DNA of 64,000 nt from Adlercreutzia hattorii (GTDB lineage Bacteria; Actinomycetota; Coriobacteriia; Coriobacteriales; Eggerthellaceae): contig NZ_AP022829.1 in assembly GCF_011405655.1 (NCBI RefSeq), positions 2,155,001 to 2,219,000 of the forward strand. Direction: 5' to 3'. Position 1 is the stretch's first letter; each line of letters begins with the position of its first letter. A program made the position numbers and the translations under genes. The notes under the pieces were generated by a model that searched no databases, was not told the DNA's origin, and worked only from the letters and a program-made list of their open reading frames with translations. Shown in pieces: positions 25,347 through 55,913 of this stretch.

Positions 25347-26231
25347 TCAGGCCCGCATGTCCCAACCAGGCGGTTCCAGAGCACTCCCCTGCAGAAGACG
25401 CCGTTTCTCCCGTGCCAATTCGTGGCTCTCGGGCGCTCCCCGCAACAAGGTCAGATCGACGATCTCGCGGAAGAACGAGGTGGCCGACAGCCCTTCAGGC
25501 ACTTTCTCGTTCAAAGGGGAGATCGCAAGCCGCCCGTCCTCCTCCCAATCGACGAGCATAAGACAGGTTGCATCGTAGGCATCGTCTTCCACGCGCAGCT
25601 TCTGAAGCATGGTAATGGCCTTCGAAAAATTCCGCGGTTCATCGACGATGGAGGAGTTCAAAAGGAAGAAAAAGCCGAGCGTGGCAAGCGGATGACGCCC
25701 TTTCAGATTCTTCGCATCGCCATAGGCCTCTTCGAAGCGGTTGGCGAGATTTTTGCCAAATGCCGAGCTCATGGTCTTCGTCGAGATGAGGATTTCAGGA
25801 CCCGTCATCCAAGAGGATAGCCCCACATCGACCTGCTTGCAATAGGTCGACCCGAGCACGTTGGCGTTGGCGCTGGCAAAGCGAGGAAGGACCTCGCAGC
25901 ATTTTTCCGCCGTTCGCGCATCCAGTGAGCCGATGAAACGCAGGACCGAAGGATCCAAAACCCGCGGCCGCACGAGCCGAGGCCACACCGATTGCGCATC
26001 GAAGCCAGCCGCGCGCAGCTCTTCGGCCACCCACATGTCCAAAGCCTTAGCCAAACTGCCGGATTGGGCGCTGCTCCCATCCCGCACCGCCACCGTGAGA
26101 AGCTTCTCCAACAGGGGTATTTCCAGAAGTGGCTCGCCGGCATCGGACCAATAGGGCCGACGCACGCTCGAGGTGCCCTGCGCCTCCCAGTGCTCCACGA
26201 TGGCGTCTTCGAACTTCTGATAGGAATCCAT
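25347..26231 (-). CDS. Putative type II restriction endonuclease (294 aa)
   Basis: Identified mainly by context: the ATG overlaps the stop of the adenine methylase by one base (TAATG), the usual arrangement of coupled restriction-modification pairs. The protein is soluble. A segment VDVGLSSWMTGPEILISTKTM contains Asp and Glu-x-Ser-x-Lys placed like a PD-(D/E)XK nuclease core, and NRFEEAYGDAKNLKGRHPLA follows. It resembles the XamI-like group from memory, but I cannot confirm the family. A methylase-associated accessory protein is the alternative. A terminator-like stem lies downstream. Confidence 0.65.
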   Translation of the reverse strand: MDSYQKFEDAIVEHWEAQGTSSVRRPYWSDAGEPLLEIPLLEKLLTVAVRDGSSAQSGSLAKALDMWVAEELRAAGFDAQSVWPRLVRPRVLDPSVLRFIGSLDARTAEKCCEVLPRFASANANVLGSTYCKQVDVGLSSWMTGPEILISTKTMSSAFGKNLANRFEEAYGDAKNLKGRHPLATLGFFFLLNSSIVDEPRNFSKAITMLQKLRVEDDAYDATCLMLVDWEEDGRLAISPLNEKVPEGLSATSFFREIVDLTLLRGAPESHELAREKRRLLQGSALEPPGWDMRA

Positions 26232-27904
26232 TACCCCACCTTCTTGAACTTAGCACGCTTCTTCCGGCGCAGGCGCATGAGCGTCGCACTTGATTTCATC
26301 TGCACGAAGCTCACCTCCTGCAGGGAAGTCCGAGGAATGAGCACGGCGTCCACCAGCGAGATCGCGCCATCGTAGTCGCGCTTCTCCAGAAGCTTTTCCA
26401 CATAGGGGGCGACGGTCCGAAGATCGTCGGCGCACGAGGCCACCAACACAGGCGAGGGCACCGCCAGCATGCCGGCCTCGCGCGGCTCCAGCTTCAGCAT
26501 GCCGCCTCCGTAGGCCCTCCCCGTTATCTCCGCGCCGAACATCGTAGCGGAGTTGAGGGAGGCAATGGGGAGAAGCGAACGCGCCGCCTCGCTTATCTCG
26601 GGATGGTAGAACAAGCTGTGGCAGGAATTCAGAACCCGCACCTTCGCGTCATTGGCACAGATGCTGGGACCGTAAGCATTCATATAGGTGACAAACGCAT
26701 CGGGGACTCCCCCAACAGGCACGCGCCACCAGGGACTCCTCACCCGGCATTTGTAGGCATTCTGCACGCCGAGCTCCTCCCCGTAGGCAATGTAGCGCTG
26801 CGCCGCCTCAGAAGGATCAGCGCCAGGGCGAAAGAGATAGACCCCTGCACCCCGTTCCGCGGCGGCTCCTTCGTCCTTTTCCGTATACGCCAAGCGACGC
26901 AAGTGCCTCGAGCCCGGCGGGCAAAGGCGCAGCACGTCGTCAGAGGCGAACCCCCATTGCTCGAATTCGCTCTGATTCAGAACGAAGAAGCTGTTGTTGC
27001 CCGTCACGGCTCCCAGCGACAGAGTGCCCCATTGGGACAAAGAGACGAATTCGCCCGCGCCCGTAAGCCGGCCCAGCGAGGAAAGCGAGTCACTCGAGGC
27101 GAAAAGCCCCGACCAGCGCGCGCCTTCCGAAGGGGGCTGGTAGAGCGCTAGCTTGCCCGACGCAAGATCGGCAATATCGTCGCACTGCTGCCAGGTAATA
27201 GACGAGCATGACCCTGCCCTCCAGCCATCGGCCAGAAGAAGGACGACCTCTTCTTGCACCTCGGGAAAAACCGGCTCGTCAAATGTTGCCAGACGCACCG
27301 ACGAAAACGACGCCATGAGGAAGGACCTCAGAGGGGCCGCGTAGTTCACCGTGAGCAATTCGGCGGGAAGAACCAAGCCGAGGCGTCCTCCGGGCTTCAG
27401 GAAGGAAACTGAGTGGAGCACGAAGGGCATCCAGAGGGACGAGAGCGAGCTTACGGCAACGCCGTGGCGCTCAGCGATGGCTCCGATGGCATCTTTCTGA
27501 TCGGACGACAGCGACTGAAACCGCACATAGGGCGGATTGCCGATCACCACGTCGAAAGATGGATCGGGCGCAAGCCGAAGAAAATCAGAGACGACGATAT
27601 TCGCGGAGCACCCTAAGGCTCCCAGTCGCCCGACGGCCTTCTCGGCACTGGCCTCGTGCACTTCGCAGCCGACGACGTTACGCTCGGCCACGGCAGATTT
27701 GCAGCCCAGCGACCGCAGGCAATCAGAGGCGGCGACAAGAAACTCGGCTTCCCCGCAAGCGGGCTCGAGCACGTGATCGTCCGGAAAGCGAATCGCCCAT
27801 CGAGCCACGAAGCGCGCTAACTCGGGCGGCGTGAAGAAGGCGCCACGGGCCTTGCGCGTCCCCGGAGCGTCCTCTGCCGCACTCAGTGCCGAACCATAGG
27901 CCAT
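26231..27904 (-). CDS. Type II N6-adenine DNA methylase (557 aa)
   Basis: SAM-dependent methylase with motif order of the TaqI-like gamma class: target end GAFFTPPELARFVARWAI, SAM motif I VLEPACGEAEFLVAA, then SFDVVIGNPPYVRFQSL with the catalytic NPPY, and a long C-terminal recognition region (WGTLSLGAVTGNNSFFVL onward). ATG 27904 is preferred because AAAGGAGG lies 9 bases upstream; the longer GTG-started frame would include that ribosome site in coding sequence. Its stop overlaps the putative endonuclease start. The pair is adjacent to gene debris, consistent with horizontal acquisition. Confidence 0.88.
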   Translation of the reverse strand: MAYGSALSAAEDAPGTRKARGAFFTPPELARFVARWAIRFPDDHVLEPACGEAEFLVAASDCLRSLGCKSAVAERNVVGCEVHEASAEKAVGRLGALGCSANIVVSDFLRLAPDPSFDVVIGNPPYVRFQSLSSDQKDAIGAIAERHGVAVSSLSSLWMPFVLHSVSFLKPGGRLGLVLPAELLTVNYAAPLRSFLMASFSSVRLATFDEPVFPEVQEEVVLLLADGWRAGSCSSITWQQCDDIADLASGKLALYQPPSEGARWSGLFASSDSLSSLGRLTGAGEFVSLSQWGTLSLGAVTGNNSFFVLNQSEFEQWGFASDDVLRLCPPGSRHLRRLAYTEKDEGAAAERGAGVYLFRPGADPSEAAQRYIAYGEELGVQNAYKCRVRSPWWRVPVGGVPDAFVTYMNAYGPSICANDAKVRVLNSCHSLFYHPEISEAARSLLPIASLNSATMFGAEITGRAYGGGMLKLEPREAGMLAVPSPVLVASCADDLRTVAPYVEKLLEKRDYDGAISLVDAVLIPRTSLQEVSFVQMKSSATLMRLRRKKRAKFKKVG

Positions 27905-27960
27905 GGCCTGTCGCCTCCTTTCCTGCACGGCATCTCATTGACTTGCCATTCTAGCGCAAA

Positions 27961-27997
27961 GAAAAGACCTCGGTGTACCCGAACAAGGACACCGAGG
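27961..27997 (-). terminator. Rho-independent terminator at the end of the ccm genes
   Basis: On the minus strand, 35 bases after the ccmD stop, CCTCGGTGT and ACACCGAGG (27989-27997 and 27968-27976) pair around a 12-base loop and are followed by TCTTTTCTTT. Confidence 0.82.
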
Positions 27998-28031
27998 CCT
28001 TCTTCATGCTTTCTGGTTCAGTGAAAGCGCG

Positions 28032-28223
28032 CTACTTGCTCTTCGCCTGCTTATCGGCAACGGCCTCTTCCAGAAGCGTGAGCTGCGCGGTCGCCTTCTT
28101 GGTGCCGCGGAAGATCATGAGCACGTACACGAGCAGGGCCACCCACAGAAGCGCGTAAGCCGCGATGATGTAGGGGGCGGAGGGCAGGATGGTGGAATAG
28201 ATATCGGCAAGAATGGGATTCAT
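28032..28223 (-). CDS. ccmD: CcmD-like small membrane protein (63 aa)
   Basis: One membrane helix (YIIAAYALLWVALLVYVLMIF, about residues 18-38) with a charged cytoplasmic end KKATAQLTLLEEA. Size, topology and position directly after ccmC match CcmD, which helps release holo-CcmE from the CcmABC heme exporter. CcmD sequences are poorly conserved, so the call rests on context. A REP-like stretch (about 28255-28290, CTTCGACTCGCTTCGCTCGC) separates it from ccmC. Confidence 0.75.
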   Translation of the reverse strand: MNPILADIYSTILPSAPYIIAAYALLWVALLVYVLMIFRGTKKATAQLTLLEEAVADKQAKSK

Positions 28224-28297
28224 GTTCGACCTTTCTCGTTGGTTGGCGACTCAAGCGGGATCCTTCGACTCGCTTCGCTCGCTCAGGATGACAAGGG

Positions 28298-29065
28298 CTA
28301 ACGTTCGTCGTCGACGGTCTCTTTGAGCGCTTCAACGCGCTGGGTAAGGCGCACCTGGTTGAAGCGCGTACGGTACAGCACGAAGCCCACGAGCAGCATG
28401 CCGAGCGCGCACAGGCCCACGCACAGGCCCATCTCGGGGCTCATACCGCCCTCGCGCAGCACCACCGGATGGATGGACGAGGGAATGAGCCGCGTGATCA
28501 TGAAGCAGATGGGCACGTCGATGGTGGCGATGATGGCCACAACCGCGGCGAAGGTGGCGCGGCGCTCGGGCTCGTCCACGGAGCTTCTCAGCACGAAATA
28601 GGCGATCACGATGAGCATCAGAATCAGATACGTCGTCAGCCGCGGCTCCCAGCTCCACCACACGCCCCACTCGAAGCGGGTCCACATCTCGCCGGTGATC
28701 ATGGTGAGCACCACGAACAGCAGCGCGATTTCCAGGCAAATGCGCGAACAGGTGTCGAACCGCTGGTTCTTCGTCATGAGGAACCGCACCGCATAGTAGC
28801 ACCCGAAGCCGAGGGCAAGGAACGAAGTGATGGCCACGGGCATATGGAAGTAGAAGATCTTTTGGGACAGGAGCATCTTCTGGGACACCATCACGTCCCC
28901 GATGAGCTCGGCGCCGTTCACCGCCGCACCGCCCACGGGGGCCACGTAGAAGAACGCCATGAGGAAGCCGACCGTGGACAGCACCGCGCCCGCAATGAGC
29001 GCCGGCACCACCAGCTTGTCGGGCCACTGCCCCACCTCAGGCAGCTTCAATTTCTTATCAGTCAC
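28298..29065 (-). CDS. ccmC: Heme exporter subunit CcmC (255 aa)
   Basis: Membrane heme-handling protein that delivers heme to CcmE outside the cell. Six membrane helices and the tryptophan-rich heme motif WGVWWSWEPRLT (a Glu replaces the Asp of WWxWD) are visible, with flanking candidate heme-ligand histidines in FYFHMPVA and SIHPVVL. Within the minus-strand block it follows ccmB by 11 bp. Length is typical. Confidence 0.92.
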   Translation of the reverse strand: MTDKKLKLPEVGQWPDKLVVPALIAGAVLSTVGFLMAFFYVAPVGGAAVNGAELIGDVMVSQKMLLSQKIFYFHMPVAITSFLALGFGCYYAVRFLMTKNQRFDTCSRICLEIALLFVVLTMITGEMWTRFEWGVWWSWEPRLTTYLILMLIVIAYFVLRSSVDEPERRATFAAVVAIIATIDVPICFMITRLIPSSIHPVVLREGGMSPEMGLCVGLCALGMLLVGFVLYRTRFNQVRLTQRVEALKETVDDER

Positions 29066-36275: not shown

Positions 36276-36314
36276 AGGTCATTCCTCCCAACCAAGGCAA
36301 TGATCAAAGGAGAT

Positions 36315-36408
36315 ACGGGGTGCCTTGACCGAGCGAGTTCCGCAGCGAACGAAACAGCCCAGTGGGCTGTTTCGCCGAGCGAGGACTGTCTGAGCGAATC
36401 AAGGTACC
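36315..36408 (+). repeat. 94-bp palindromic element, intergenic copy
   Basis: Starts ACGGGGTGCCTTGACC, has the central palindrome GAAACAGCCCAGTGGGCTG (continuing TTTC) and ends GAATCAAGGTACC. It matches 54517-54610, inside rsmA in inverse orientation, at 93 of 94 positions. It lies between napD and napH and would form a long RNA hairpin in the nap transcript. Confidence 0.9.
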
Positions 36409-36434
36409 CCGCAGCTCCGCTTTTGGGCGACTTT

Positions 36435-47649: not shown

Positions 47650-47767
47650 GGCTCGGAGGGGCCGAGGGAACCCGTGCTCAAGCAATGGCTCGCTTTGCGG
47701 AACAGCCCACTGGGCTGTTCCAGTCGCTGCGCAACCTGCGCGCGGGCCCCCTCGGCCCCTCCGAGCC
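47650..47767. repeat. Nested long palindrome abutting the recQ stop
   Basis: Outer arms GGCTCGGAGGGGCCGAGGG (47650-47668) and its exact inverse (47749-47767), 19 bp each. In the centre is a second palindrome with arms GAACAGCCCA/TGGGCTGTTC (47700-47720) sharing the ACAGCCCACTGGGCTGT core of the 94-bp element. The right arm touches the recQ stop codon. It may act as a bidirectional terminator or be a composite mobile palindrome. Confidence 0.85.
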
Positions 47768-49830
47768 TACTCAACTTCGGTTGCTTCGGGGACAGACGCG
47801 ATCTCTTCCAAGAACGCCTTACCATAGGTGGCGAGCTTTTTCTCGCCTACGCCGGGGAGGGCTAGCAGCTCCTCTTCCGTGGCGGGGCGGGCGGCGGCCA
47901 TAGCGGCTAGGGTGGCGTCGTGGAAGATGACGTAGGGCGGCACGGCGGCCTCCTGGGCCAGGAGCAGACGCAGGGCGCGCAAACGCTCGAAGAGCTCGGC
48001 GTCCGCCGCTCCCAGATCGGCGGCGCCAGGACGGGCAGCCTTCGGCGGTTTGGCCGCGCTCCCCTTGCGCACCTTCGGCGTCTGCTTGATGCGCAGCGCA
48101 AAATCGGGCTCAGCGGCCTCACGGTAGCGGGGGCCGAAGCCCACAAGCGGGAACTTCCCCTCGGTGATGGCGAGATACCCGTCGGCAGCCAAGAGCTCCA
48201 CCACTTCCATGAGCAGGGCGCGCCGAGCCTCGGAGGTGCCGTAGACCGGCAGGTTCACCAGGCCCCACTGGCGCAGATTCTCGGTGTCGGCGCCGCGCAG
48301 CACGTCCACCACCGTCGTCTTGCCGAAGCGGCCGCGCAGAGCCTGCACGCAGCGCATGATGGCGCGAGCCTCGGCGGTGACGTCCACGGCCTCGAATTCC
48401 CCGTCGCAGTTCGAGCAGCACCGCTTCGCCGACGAGCTTGCAGAATTTTCCTCGGTCGGGAGGGCGGACCAAGATCCACCCCTACGGAGGGTGGGGTCGC
48501 AGGCGGCATGGCCATCGCGGGAGTCTGGGGCGCAGGCAGCACCGTCAAGCAGGTTTGCGCCGCCGGCACCCGCCCCACCGTAGGGGGCGACCTCGGTCGC
48601 CCCTCCCTGCGACGGGAGTGCCTCGTCATGACCACCTTCCCCGAAGTAGCGGAGAATGTACGCGCGCAGGCAACCGGTGGTGTAGCAGTAGCCGACCATG
48701 GACTCCAGCATGCGGCGGCGGCTCGCGCGCACCACCTCGGCCTCCTCGGCCGTGAGCCCCTCGTGGGTCGATTCCTGCTCGATGAAGAAACGGCCCGTGG
48801 CGATGTCGCCGTCGCACCACAGAAGTAGGCATTCGGCCGGGCTTCCGTCGCGCCCGGCGCGGCCGGCCTCCTGGTAGTAGGCCTCCACCGACCCGGGCAT
48901 GTTGTAGTGCACCACGTAGCTGACGTTGGACTTGTCGATGCCCATGCCGAAGGCGTTGGTGGCCACCATGACCGGGGCCGTATCGTTCACGAAGGCCCGC
49001 TGGTTGCGCTCGCGCTCCTCGGCGGTGAGCCCCGCGTGGTAGCGGGTGGCCGCGATGCCGCGCTCGCGCAAGTGGTCGCACACCTCCTCCACCGTCGCCC
49101 GCTTGGCGCAGTAGACGATGCCCGACTCGGCCCGTCGCTCGTCGATGAAGGCATCCAGGCGCGCCAGCTTCTGCTTGGGCTCGCGCCGCTCCACCGCGAA
49201 ACGCAGGTTGGGCCGGTCGAAGCCCGTGACCGTGCAGGCCGCGTCGCGCAGACCCAGAAGGCGCACGATGTCGCGGCGCACCAGATCGGTGGCCGTGGCC
49301 GTGAGCGCCGCCACGGGAGGGCGGACGGGCAGCTCAGCGATGAACTGGCCGATGGAGAGGTACGAGGGGCGGAAGTCCTGACCCCATTGGGACACGCAGT
49401 GGGCCTCGTCCACGGCGATCAGCGCGAGCCGCGCCGTACGGGCGAACTCGGCGAAGCGCGGATCGGCCAGGCGCTCGGGAGCCACGTACATGAGGTCATA
49501 GGCGCCCTCGGCCGCCCGGCGCAGCACCTCGGCCTGCTGTCCGGGCGCCAGCGTGGAATTCAGGTACGCCCCGCGGATGCCCGCTTCCTGCACGGCCCGA
49601 ACCTGGTCGGCCATGAGCGACACGAGCGGGCTCACGACGAGCGCCATGCCCTCCATGACGACGGCCGGCACCTGGTAGCACACCGACTTGCCGGCACCGG
49701 TGGGCATGACTGCCAGCACATCGCGACCGGAAAGGAGCGCCGAGACCACTGCCTCCTGCCCCGGGCGGAACGCGTCGTAGCCGAAACGGCTCGCCAGCAC
49801 AGCCCGTGCCTGCTCCATCTTCTGATCCAT
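47767..49830 (-). CDS. recQ: ATP-dependent DNA helicase RecQ with an inserted segment (687 aa)
   Basis: 3'-5' helicase for recombination and fork repair. Helicase motifs include FGYDAFRPGQEAVV, Walker A MPTGAGKSVCYQVP, DEAHCVSQWGQDFRP, TATATDLVRRDI and QEAGRAGRDG. The RecQ-Ct zinc site starts at CYTTGCLRAYILRYFGE and ends at CCSNCD, but about 65 extra residues lie between (about 400-468), encoded by palindromic repeats. A winged helix and a C-terminal HRDC domain (LRLLLAQEAAVPPYVIFHDA) follow. The frame is intact, so the insert seems tolerated in the zinc-domain loop. Confidence 0.95.
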   Translation of the reverse strand: MDQKMEQARAVLASRFGYDAFRPGQEAVVSALLSGRDVLAVMPTGAGKSVCYQVPAVVMEGMALVVSPLVSLMADQVRAVQEAGIRGAYLNSTLAPGQQAEVLRRAAEGAYDLMYVAPERLADPRFAEFARTARLALIAVDEAHCVSQWGQDFRPSYLSIGQFIAELPVRPPVAALTATATDLVRRDIVRLLGLRDAACTVTGFDRPNLRFAVERREPKQKLARLDAFIDERRAESGIVYCAKRATVEEVCDHLRERGIAATRYHAGLTAEERERNQRAFVNDTAPVMVATNAFGMGIDKSNVSYVVHYNMPGSVEAYYQEAGRAGRDGSPAECLLLWCDGDIATGRFFIEQESTHEGLTAEEAEVVRASRRRMLESMVGYCYTTGCLRAYILRYFGEGGHDEALPSQGGATEVAPYGGAGAGGANLLDGAACAPDSRDGHAACDPTLRRGGSWSALPTEENSASSSAKRCCSNCDGEFEAVDVTAEARAIMRCVQALRGRFGKTTVVDVLRGADTENLRQWGLVNLPVYGTSEARRALLMEVVELLAADGYLAITEGKFPLVGFGPRYREAAEPDFALRIKQTPKVRKGSAAKPPKAARPGAADLGAADAELFERLRALRLLLAQEAAVPPYVIFHDATLAAMAAARPATEEELLALPGVGEKKLATYGKAFLEEIASVPEATEVE
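48452..48606. repeat. Palindromic repeats forming the recQ in-frame insertion
   Basis: 48578-48606 contains the exact inverse of 42898-42924 (GGGGCGACCTCGGTCGCCCC core). 48452-48490 contains GAGGGCGGACCAAGATCCAC and CCCTACGGAGGG, a second member of the same style. Together they bound the extra residues of RecQ. Confidence 0.78.
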
Positions 49831-50011
49831 GAACGTTCCCCGCCTTCGGTCGCCTCGTCTTTTGCAAGCCAGTATAGCGGGTATCGGCTCTGCCGTGGTC
49901 GCGGCAAAGCCGTCCCAAAACCGTCATCGGTTCCCGGCGCTTTCCCACACCGACCGCTGCGGCGTCGCCATTGCGTCCGCCTCAGCCGAATCGCGCCGAC
50001 ACGCAGCGCCG

Positions 50012-53842: not shown

Positions 53843-55012
53843 TCAGACGGTCGCCTCTTTCAGCAGTGCAGCGCCGAGGGCGAGGAATTCCTGCTGGGTC
53901 AGGGTTTCGCCGCGGCGGCGGGGGTCGATGGCGGCGGCATCGAAGATGGCGGGAAGGTGGTCGACGATGTCGGCTCCGTCGAGGACGAAGGCGCCCCCAA
54001 CACCACCAGACAGGGCGCCATCCACGGCCCTTAGCCCAGCCGACGAACCCGAGGCTCCCAGCAAGAGCGAGCCGCGGCCGGAGAAGTAGGTCTTGCAGGA
54101 GTTGGCGATGGTCTTGCGGCGGTTGGCGAAGGCGGCGTCGGCTATGAGAGCCGCAGCAGCGATGACCTCCGGCGTGGCAGGTGCCCCATCGGCCATGAGC
54201 GGCACGCGACGGTTCAGGCGGATGACGGCGGAATCGACCCGGGGCGGCGGGAAAAAGTTGCCCGGGCCCACGGGAAAGCGGCCGGCCGGCTCGGCGTGCA
54301 AGCCGAGCTTCACGGTGTAAGCGCCGTAGTTCTTCGTGCCCACGGCGGCCGCCATGCGGTCGGCCACCTCCTTCTGCACCATGATGGTGACGGAGTCCAA
54401 GAAGAGGAAGGATTCGAAGTAGTCGAGCACGACGGTGGCGGCCACGGCGTAGGGAAGGTTCGCGACCAGCTTGCTGGGAAGACTCGGCTGAAGCTCCTCC
54501 TGAGGCACAGCCACGCGGTACCTTGATTCGCTCAGACAGTCCTCGCTCTGCGAAACAGCCCACTGGGCTGTTTCGTTCGCTGCGGAACTCGCTCGGTCAA
54601 GGCACCCCGTGTCTGCGCCGATCTCGGCCATAGCCGCAACAATGTCATCCCCGGTTACGTCAAGGGCGTCCTTTTCTATGAGAGCGAACTTCTCGCGCCA
54701 GGGGTGCAGGGTGTCGGCGAGGACGGCGGGCAGGTCGGGGTCGCGCTCGATGGCGACGACGCTGGCGGCGTGCTTCAGGAGCGCGATGGTGAGCGTGCCG
54801 ATGCCGGGGCCCACTTCCAAAACGCGGTCGGCCTCGTCCACCTCGGCCAGGGCGATGATCTTCTTCAGCACGTCGTCGTTCACGAGAAAGTTCTGGCCGA
54901 GCGTGTACTTGGTGCCGATGCCGTGGGCCTCGAGCACCGCGCGGGTGGCACTCGGCGTAGAGAGCGGCGACAGGCGCCCGTCGCCGCCGGCATAGCTATC
55001 GGTGGCCGCCAC
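53843..55012 (-). CDS. rsmA: 16S rRNA adenine dimethyltransferase RsmA (KsgA), with in-frame palindromic insert (389 aa)
   Basis: Dimethylates two adenines near the 3' end of 16S rRNA. Motifs: YTLGQNFLVND, SAM site VLEVGPGIGTLTIALL, DALDVTGDDIV, catalytic LVANLPYAVA and NFFPPPRVDSAVIRL. Normal length is about 270-290. One extra block (residues about 134-165, DTGCLDRASSAANETAQWAV onward) is encoded by the 94-bp palindromic element; another (YFSGRGSLLLGASGSSAGLR onward) lies near the C-terminus. A GTG at 55012 is the best start: it overlaps the end of the upstream oxidoreductase gene. No in-frame ATG precedes the conserved region. Confidence 0.9.
   Translation of the reverse strand: MAATDSYAGGDGRLSPLSTPSATRAVLEAHGIGTKYTLGQNFLVNDDVLKKIIALAEVDEADRVLEVGPGIGTLTIALLKHAASVVAIERDPDLPAVLADTLHPWREKFALIEKDALDVTGDDIVAAMAEIGADTGCLDRASSAANETAQWAVSQSEDCLSESRYRVAVPQEELQPSLPSKLVANLPYAVAATVVLDYFESFLFLDSVTIMVQKEVADRMAAAVGTKNYGAYTVKLGLHAEPAGRFPVGPGNFFPPPRVDSAVIRLNRRVPLMADGAPATPEVIAAAALIADAAFANRRKTIANSCKTYFSGRGSLLLGASGSSAGLRAVDGALSGGVGGAFVLDGADIVDHLPAIFDAAAIDPRRRGETLTQQEFLALGAALLKEATV
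54517..54610 (-). repeat. 94-bp palindromic element, copy inside rsmA
   Basis: Inverse of 36315-36408, 93 of 94 bases identical. The central palindrome is at 54552-54574 (arms GAAACAGCCCA/TGGGCTGTTTC). In rsmA it encodes about 32 residues without a stop, inserted between the DALDVTGDD region and KLVANLPY, a surface loop of the methylase fold. Confidence 0.92.
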
Positions 55013-55913
55013 GGCCGTTGCCCTTCTTCTTGGTGTTCTTCTTCCCGTAGGCCGGGCCGCCGCCCTTGCCGGAGGACTTGCGCGGGCCGCGGGAGCCCGA
55101 CTTCGGGGCATCCTGCTTAGGGGCGGGCGCCTTCTGGCTTACGGACAGCTTCGCGCGATCCTTCGGGCGGTGCTCGGCAGCTTCGGTCGCCCCGTCGTTG
55201 TCCTCCTCCTCTTCGACTTCCTCGATTTCTTCCACGCCCTCCACTTCCACAACCTCATAGTCGTCATCGAACTCGAGGCCCAGGGCGCCGAAGCCGCCCA
55301 CGGGGGGCAGCGGGTACTCCTCGGCGTCGGCCGTGATCTCGCCGTCAGCGCGGATCTTCCCCACCCAGTTGAGCACGAGCTCTACGGCAAAGCCGGCCAC
55401 GGACAGCGCCGAGCGCACCGTGCCGATGAGCGGCTCGAAGCCGTGGGGATCGCCGCCGGCTCCTACCACGTGGATGACCGCAGGGCGCTTGGGCCGCGTG
55501 CGCAGGTCGGTGAAGTAGTAGGGCTGCAGGCGGTCGAGCAGCGCCTTCATCTGAGCCGGCACGCTGGCGAAGTACACCGGGCACACCACGATGAGCTCAT
55601 CGGCCGCATCCAGGTGCTTGCGCACCTCGTTCATGTCGTCGTCGATGATGCAGTGGTGGAACAGAGCACCGGATTCCGCCACCGTCTCTTGAGGCAGCAG
55701 CGGATCGCCCTCCTCGAACACGTGGATGGGCTCCTCGGCGACGGCGCGGCACTCATCGCAGCCGATACACGGCCGCACCTCGGTGGACGACACCGACACG
55801 ATGGACACCCCGTCCTCCGGGCACTCCTCGATGCAGGCATTGAATAGCTCGTCGGCCAGCACGGCACTGCGCCCATCGGCCCGACACGACCCGTGCAAAA
55901 TCACTCTATGCAT
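54996..55913 (-). CDS. Flavodoxin-fold NAD(P)H-dependent oxidoreductase with charged tail (305 aa)
   Basis: FMN-type reductase fold: MHRVILHGSCRADGRSAVLA (phosphate-binding loop), a redox-type RPCIGCDECRA pair, DDMNEVRKHLDAADELIVVC and PVYFASVPAQMKALLDRLQP as in iron-sulfur flavoproteins. After about residue 205 comes an acidic coil (VEEIEEVEEEEDNDGATE) and then a Lys/Gly/Arg-rich end (KKNTKKKGNGRGGHR), which could bind nucleic acid or ribosomes. The ATG overlaps the tatD stop by eight bases; the 3' end overlaps rsmA, giving a tight rsmA-linked operon. Confidence 0.8.
   Translation of the reverse strand: MHRVILHGSCRADGRSAVLADELFNACIEECPEDGVSIVSVSSTEVRPCIGCDECRAVAEEPIHVFEEGDPLLPQETVAESGALFHHCIIDDDMNEVRKHLDAADELIVVCPVYFASVPAQMKALLDRLQPYYFTDLRTRPKRPAVIHVVGAGGDPHGFEPLIGTVRSALSVAGFAVELVLNWVGKIRADGEITADAEEYPLPPVGGFGALGLEFDDDYEVVEVEGVEEIEEVEEEEDNDGATEAAEHRPKDRAKLSVSQKAPAPKQDAPKSGSRGPRKSSGKGGGPAYGKKNTKKKGNGRGGHR

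Follow-up and report, generated by a model that had tools for sequence, protein, structure and literature searches.

What is the palindromic sequence that lies inside the rsmA gene of Adlercreutzia hattorii, and how does the gene for a conserved rRNA methylase come to carry it? The window analyzed here is the whole stretch of 64,000 nucleotides around the gene (contig NZ_AP022829.1, positions 2,155,001 to 2,219,000). A sequence-only reading of the window had described a 94-bp palindromic element at 54517–54610, inserted in frame into rsmA, and a 93/94-identical element at 36315–36408. A BLAST search confirmed the pair, which matches in opposite orientation with 99% identity over 94 nt (E 2.9e-42). 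The proposed size of 94 bp, or about 32 residues, proved too small: the 94 bp are the middle part of a hairpin whose core is 114 nt, and the insert in RsmA measures 129–150 nt, encoding 43–50 residues. The core coordinates are defined by a covariance model, R1, built from 44 copies. In rsmA, the core occupies 54505–54618 on the gene's minus strand (129.2 bits), with the reading frame GCLDRASSAANETAQWAVSQSEDCLSESR. In the element, an outer stem of 20 pairs (P1) encloses near-invariant inner strands and a central hairpin of 12 pairs (P2); a conserved tail of about 20 nt is found on the 5' side of the core (100 type-A copies). The 20-nt P1 arms of the rsmA copy lie at 54597–54616 (5' arm) and 54507–54526 (3' arm) on the minus strand, as window coordinates derived by hand, and the sequence places P2, with 12-nt arms and one central base and no strand assigned, at 54551–54575.

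Two further cores were located in the window with R1. The second copy (36307–36420, plus strand) is antisense to its two flanking leftward genes, which were recognized by coding potential and had been read as napD and napH. The third copy (47651–47766, minus strand) belongs to subtype B and lies directly behind the stop codon of a leftward gene (47767–49923), which we take from its sequence to be RecQ-like. The 5' tail of this copy coincides with the last codons and the TAG stop of the adjoining gene. Subtype B, as sorted, comprises 12 copies in the A. hattorii genome and one from a relative (G003). A further 13 copies in the A. hattorii genome (L190–L202, L denoting locus labels) have a 137–138-nt form with a long P2, in which a longer hairpin, mostly GGTRTCGAAGGC...GCCTTCGATACC around a variable loop, takes the place of P2.

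The element is widespread in the class. The 94-mer gave 53 BLAST matches in the A. hattorii genome and matches in 24 of the 60 genomes searched, A. hattorii included. R1 found 46 full copies and one short match in this 2.9-Mb genome, the other six of the 53 listed rows being the opposite strand of palindromes already counted; together with the 114-nt core, this establishes the palindromic and multi-copy character that had been proposed. Adlercreutzia is placed in Coriobacteriia, Actinomycetota. In a sample of the class, 166 of 296 genomes, including that of A. hattorii, matched R1 at E ≤ 0.001. A sample of the phylum gave 16 matching genomes among 296 at E ≤ 1e-4, of which 15 were A. hattorii or members of the same class and one lay outside the class. 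Of the nine rsmA relatives with names, eight were Adlercreutzia or Enterorhabdus and one was an Eggerthellales genome. An Rfam search with 1,201 bases around the rsmA copy and six loci found no family above the gathering score; a known RNA family was rejected, the four rows returned being matches to miRNA hairpins far below the gathering scores. A search of the open-access literature found no paper on such an element in Coriobacteriia. The accessible text of one study gives 5183 candidates (PMC8040213), among which the hairpin may be included without a name. We conclude that the element represents a real family of coding-tolerant palindromes that has no name in the searched literature.

The host gene of the first copy is clear. 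The open reading frame 53843–55111 (minus strand) continues through the element, and its product is RsmA/KsgA (TIGR00755, 194 bits, cut-off 171; PF00398, 130.9 bits, cut-off 24), as the proposed in-frame insertion into rsmA (ksgA) implied. The true start is probably further 3' than 55111, near residue 45, and the Arg/Pro-rich N-terminus of the long frame may then be untranslated. At 54996–55111, this frame coincides with the last part of the upstream gene's frame. The extra segment, defined by protein and DNA comparison with five relatives (G001–G005), extends approximately over 54482–54616 (minus strand; derived by hand from residue numbers). Among the nine genomes of the genus, namely A. hattorii (G000) and eight relatives (G001–G008), the segment between the DAL(D) and NLPY motifs is 222 nt long with the element, 93 nt in G002, and 72 nt in G001, G003, G004, and G005. 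Thus, two genomes (G000 and G006) carry an intact element at this site and five have a short linker of 72–93 nt. The 150-nt segment of G007 contains a decayed copy, since none of 1000 mononucleotide shuffles aligned as well. A remnant in the 111-nt segment of G008 was unsupported, with 576 of 1000 shuffles being as good. The sequence-only reading had named an old domain and an assembly artefact as the findings that would overturn it, and neither was encountered: the site is empty in most of the genus, and the positions of two copies recur in other genomes, that in RsmA in the separately assembled G006 and that at nap in G002. We found no point in favor of an assembly or annotation artefact, and this occupation of the same sites in separately assembled genomes makes its probability practically negligible.

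An AlphaFold model of RsmA reached a mean pLDDT of 86.1 with 29 sequences (45.8 with seven), with 282 of the 381 residues at 90 or above. Values fell below 50 at model residues 141–165, within the insert, and in a second, unrelated stretch near residues 315–330. The best-matching solved chains of RsmA and TrmD have four to five residues at the position of the insert. The model suggests that the inserted peptide is a low-confidence loop that is probably disordered.

RsmA is one of six host proteins. In the A. hattorii genome, six of the 46 copies lie inside genes (RsmA, TrmD, a radical-SAM protein, a YdhW-like protein, an Fe-S protein, and IorA); since the copies of relatives were partly chosen for long open frames, the fair intragenic share comes from this genome only. 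Among 113 distinct copies (46 from A. hattorii and 67 from relatives), 21 were intragenic by a coding-potential test. Two others (L206 and L141) were missed by the test, but their frames run across the element, and they were added by hand to give 23. The hosts are RsmA in G000 and G006, TrmD in eight genomes (family scores above the cut-offs), the radical-SAM protein in six (TIGR03279, 266 bits, below the cut-off of 574.7), the YdhW-like protein in four (99.6 bits, below the cut-off of 203), the Fe-S protein in two (only sub-cut-off matches among the best 25), and IorA in one (602 bits, below the cut-off of 650.9). The Fe-S protein of A. hattorii (L141, approximately 504504–507618 of the genome) contains several half-elements in tandem, encoding repeated DRASSAA and HQASSAAN peptides.

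The tRNA methyltransferase TrmD is essential in many bacteria. Its gene carries the element in eight of the nine genomes of the genus, sometimes doubled or halved, and G006 is empty at this site. The segment between FEAV and LAPQG is 72 nt in G006 as compared with 216–309 nt in the carriers, and in other families of the order the flanking matches nearly touch in all four genomes compared. The TrmD genes of L244–L249 contain a full element and part of another, of differing subtype in several species. The radical-SAM gene holds the element in its six genomes, while the flanking matches in G008 are 6 nt apart, the site being not judgeable in G003 and G006. The host sites thus show all four states, filled, empty, doubled, and decayed.

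The way in which the element is read is strongly biased. Twenty-two of the 23 intragenic copies are in the sense orientation, and all of these are entered in one frame. The exception is a subtype-B copy in IorA (L151, approximately 25654–28767 of the A. hattorii genome), which is antisense and yet in frame. The entry frame is kept throughout in 18 of the 22 sense copies, encoding the same Ser/Ala-rich peptide. The other four, 115 nt long (L141, L143, L246, and L248), have an extra base in P2 and are read in another frame in the second half, with no stop codon; they share only the first half of the peptide. Among 38 type-A copies, the three antisense frames remain open in 34, 30, and 11, as compared with 26 for the frame in use and 10 and 5 for the two remaining sense frames. 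Other frames are thus often open too, and the choice of frame is not accounted for by stop codons alone. The chance of a single entry frame was estimated by hand as about 0.003, taking host genes as units (5/6) and the open-frame share as 26/116.

Could the insert be an old protein domain or an adapted peptide that is selected as protein? That five unrelated proteins share the peptide or half of it, and that TrmD has an element in nearly the whole genus, would be expected of such a domain. The inner strands are, however, equally conserved outside genes (identity to the consensus of 0.927, as compared with 0.939 in intragenic copies), so that the peptide looks like a by-product. In addition, the RsmA site lacks the element in most of the genus, the insert is of low confidence and probably disordered in the RsmA model, and three of the eight TrmD copies read the second half in another frame. 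We therefore consider selection as a protein very unlikely. Still less probable is that the insert is absent from the proteins, being skipped by translational bypass or cut out by RNA processing. A strong hairpin within coding mRNA and its retention inside genes would suit this explanation, whereas the open frame and common entry phase of all 22 sense copies would be needless if the insert were bypassed.

The stems pointed to a further property of the element. In the 44 sequences, 28 of the 32 pairs have changes on both sides (302 double-change cells), and RNAalifold listed covariation support for 30 of 38. Pairing was kept in 89.1% of the cells as compared with 67.7% in shuffles, none of 500 of which reached the observed values, although part of this excess arises by construction because the structure came from one of the 44 sequences. 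When the partner was slid by one column, pairing fell to 44–47%. The P1 5' arms are highly diverse, with 68 distinct arms among the 78 type-A copies of 114 nt. In these copies, P1 pairing is 0.950 for intragenic copies (n = 17), 0.932 for the others (n = 61), and 0.692 when arms of different copies are combined. Hairpins inside genes therefore pair as well as intergenic ones. Four host genes supplied 16 copies with a length of 114 nt (five in TrmD, five in the radical-SAM gene, four in the YdhW-like gene, and two in RsmA). Their pairwise comparison, whose counts are not independent events, gave 161 cases in which both partners of a pair differed but remained paired, 55 with a change of one partner (23 keeping and 32 breaking the pair), and 9 in which both partners differed and the pair was lost.

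Comparison of orthologous sites showed that the elements differ as whole units between species. There were 88 orthologous-site pairs, 57 with elements of one length and 31 with elements differing in length. In the 57 same-length pairs, the identity of the elements (65% to 100%) was uncorrelated with that of the flanks (rho −0.04, p 0.77). The nap copy is common to G002 with 113 of 114 bases identical, though the flanks are only 79–84% identical. L216 and L239 have 96–98% identical flanks, and their elements are of different subtype and 65% identical; L200 and L232 share the flanks and nearly all of P1, yet have different P2 hairpins. The orthologue was the nearest relative for five of the 18 copies having an orthologue in the set. 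Because alleles at one site differ in this manner between species, the 93/94 identity within the window is no proof of recent spread; the earlier deduction that high identity implies such spread was not supported, and recent spread as the only cause was rejected. This pattern is consistent with template switching between the arms or with whole-hairpin exchange, possibly reinforced by selection for structure. For L239, the copy from G004, there are close relatives that match the entire element. A search for a donor of the unusual stem of the G005 radical-SAM copy gave no other near-full-length (124 nt) match above 82% identity among the matches listed, so that its simple conversion from a present copy is not demonstrated.

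Outside genes, the copies tend to be located near stop codons. A stop codon counted as close if it lay 9–22 nt to the 3' side or no more than 31 nt to the 5' side. Of the 90 copies, 49 have such a stop (26 of the 40 in A. hattorii); some of the copies are orthologous and descend from a single event. Among the 48 stops of antisense neighbors on the 3' side, 30 are 9–22 nt from the core and 20 are at exactly +14 or +17. The 33 sense stops on the 5' side are more scattered, with 20 within 31 nt. A preference for TAG stops was rejected (29 of 50 near elements and 153 of 242 in the background; Fisher p 0.52). Of 80 type-A copies without an intragenic flag, 19 have the motif GTAG precisely at the foot of the hairpin; two of the 80 (L141 and L206) are intragenic by hand. 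Among 20 flagged copies, 2 have the motif there, and at any other offset it occurs at most three times. Between co-directional genes of A. hattorii, 19 copies are sense (one of them really inside TrmD) and 18 antisense.

These positions raise the possibility of a functional structured RNA under selection, such as a 3'-end stabilizer or a site for RNase III or a regulator, with the intragenic copies being accidents. The strong covariation, the nearby stop codons, and the presence across the class are consistent with this explanation, as is the excess of G-U over A-C pairs in the modelled strand (74 and 36, or 46 and 36 without one column). It does not account for the lack of orientation preference between co-directional genes, and the structure is kept equally well inside genes. 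Moreover, double changes outnumber single ones, and the one-sided changes are not mostly G-U, unlike the result of slow selection through wobble intermediates; no Rfam family scored above gathering either. The intergenic copies could be functional RNA, and as an account of the whole family we consider this explanation unlikely.

We also searched for an enzyme that might mobilize the element and found none in the genomes and loci examined. Y1 transposases are absent from seven of the nine genomes of the genus (G001 and G003–G008), which carry many copies. Scanning 30 Y1 loci with the element model gave only a half-match and three weak matches, with no linked RAYT. The half-match, at the edge of a Y1 locus of G002 (L091), scored 27.3 bits and was cut off by the locus end. 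The weak matches (24–25 bits) beside a RAYT-like gene in G012 were rejected, as they are different palindromes belonging to that gene. Mobilization by Y1/RAYT is thus without support from the genus genomes or the Y1 loci examined. RAYT-like genes of other genera are flanked by perfect palindromes or terminal inverted repeats of their own (L095, 1275–1339 and 2284–2345; L100, 1405–1443 and 2224–2262). No target-site duplication was resolved, as the divergence between empty and filled sites is too large to fix the ends of the element. We deduce mobility from the occupied and empty states of the RsmA, TrmD, and radical-SAM sites, where losses could be deletions.

On balance, we propose that the palindromes are a family of non-autonomous, structure-defined elements of Coriobacteriia that work like Rickettsia palindromic elements (RPEs) and REPs, and assign this proposal a probability of roughly 60%. 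The best reading is a selfish RPE-like hairpin in a distant phylum, tolerated in loops, whose arms would stay matched through exchange and arm correction. An enzyme would recognize the hairpin and inner strands, perhaps as single-stranded DNA, and would copy the element to new places, often just behind stop codons. Occasionally, a copy would land in codon phase within a loop-encoding stretch. One frame is usually stop-free and would yield a hydrophilic, probably disordered peptide, so that the host enzyme may still work and the copy may be kept for a long time. The stem arms would change together by template switching between arms and whole-hairpin exchange among copies, and not only by selection. 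More tentatively, the hairpin might move and be exchanged class-wide as a structural cassette, with the inner strands fixed and both stems rewritten as paired units without a change of site, even within the TrmD gene, by template switching or a hairpin-exchanging enzyme; we regard this extension as possible though rather doubtful. The literature searched contained no description of a mechanism of this type for bacterial mobile repeats.

The family provides a rich case in gut Actinomycetota, some of which are cultured, with nine related genomes in which a given gene can be seen with its site empty, full, doubled, or decayed. It thereby allows direct tests of the mode of spread of such elements and of the reasons for their tolerance in proteins. 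The joint change of the stem arms is also seen within protein-coding genes, for which selection on RNA structure is a less obvious explanation.

Coding palindromes have so far been known chiefly from Rickettsia and Wolbachia, and REPs are found inside genes of some other bacteria. Short, dispersed, inverted-repeat elements also recall MITEs, but the present element has no fixed terminal inverted repeat, as the diversity of its P1 arms indicates, and no target duplication or parent transposon was found. According to the accessible text of PMC3733652, REPs are located mostly just behind ORFs and in some cases inside ORFs, including tRNA-modification genes. The present element similarly has copies behind ORFs and inside a tRNA-modification gene. 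GTAG, the tag of such repeats, stands at the foot of the hairpin in a minority of its copies. The element differs from REPs, which are 20–40 bp, in its 114-nt core, and no RAYT was linked in the loci examined. Since defining features of these systems were not found, namely a Y1/RAYT transposase linked to copies for REP/RAYT and conserved terminal inverted repeats for MITEs, we do not file the element under either. Hairpins maintained by template switching are described as having arms that change together (PMC8794818, PMC8604942); one of these papers deals with yeast genes, and the accessible portions of both make no mention of a dispersed bacterial element. RPEs and the related WPEs are described, in the accessible texts, as palindromes of 100–150 bp with many copies, located inside ORFs without breaking the frame, inserted at solvent-exposed positions, and shared by orthologues (PMC3767692, PMC10969869). 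The likeness to RPEs suggested by the sequence-only reading gains support from the palindrome of about 100–150 bp, the number of dispersed copies, and their in-frame presence in several unrelated genes as well as in spacers. The present element belongs to a different phylum, and it may further differ from those published descriptions in that its arms co-vary around conserved inner strands, that it is almost always entered in one frame, and that its hairpin at one site differs between species. RPEs and intragenic REPs appear, by analogy, to be the nearest known elements in behavior; the element is known in kind, and what is unusual is its host, its anatomy, and the way in which its arms change.
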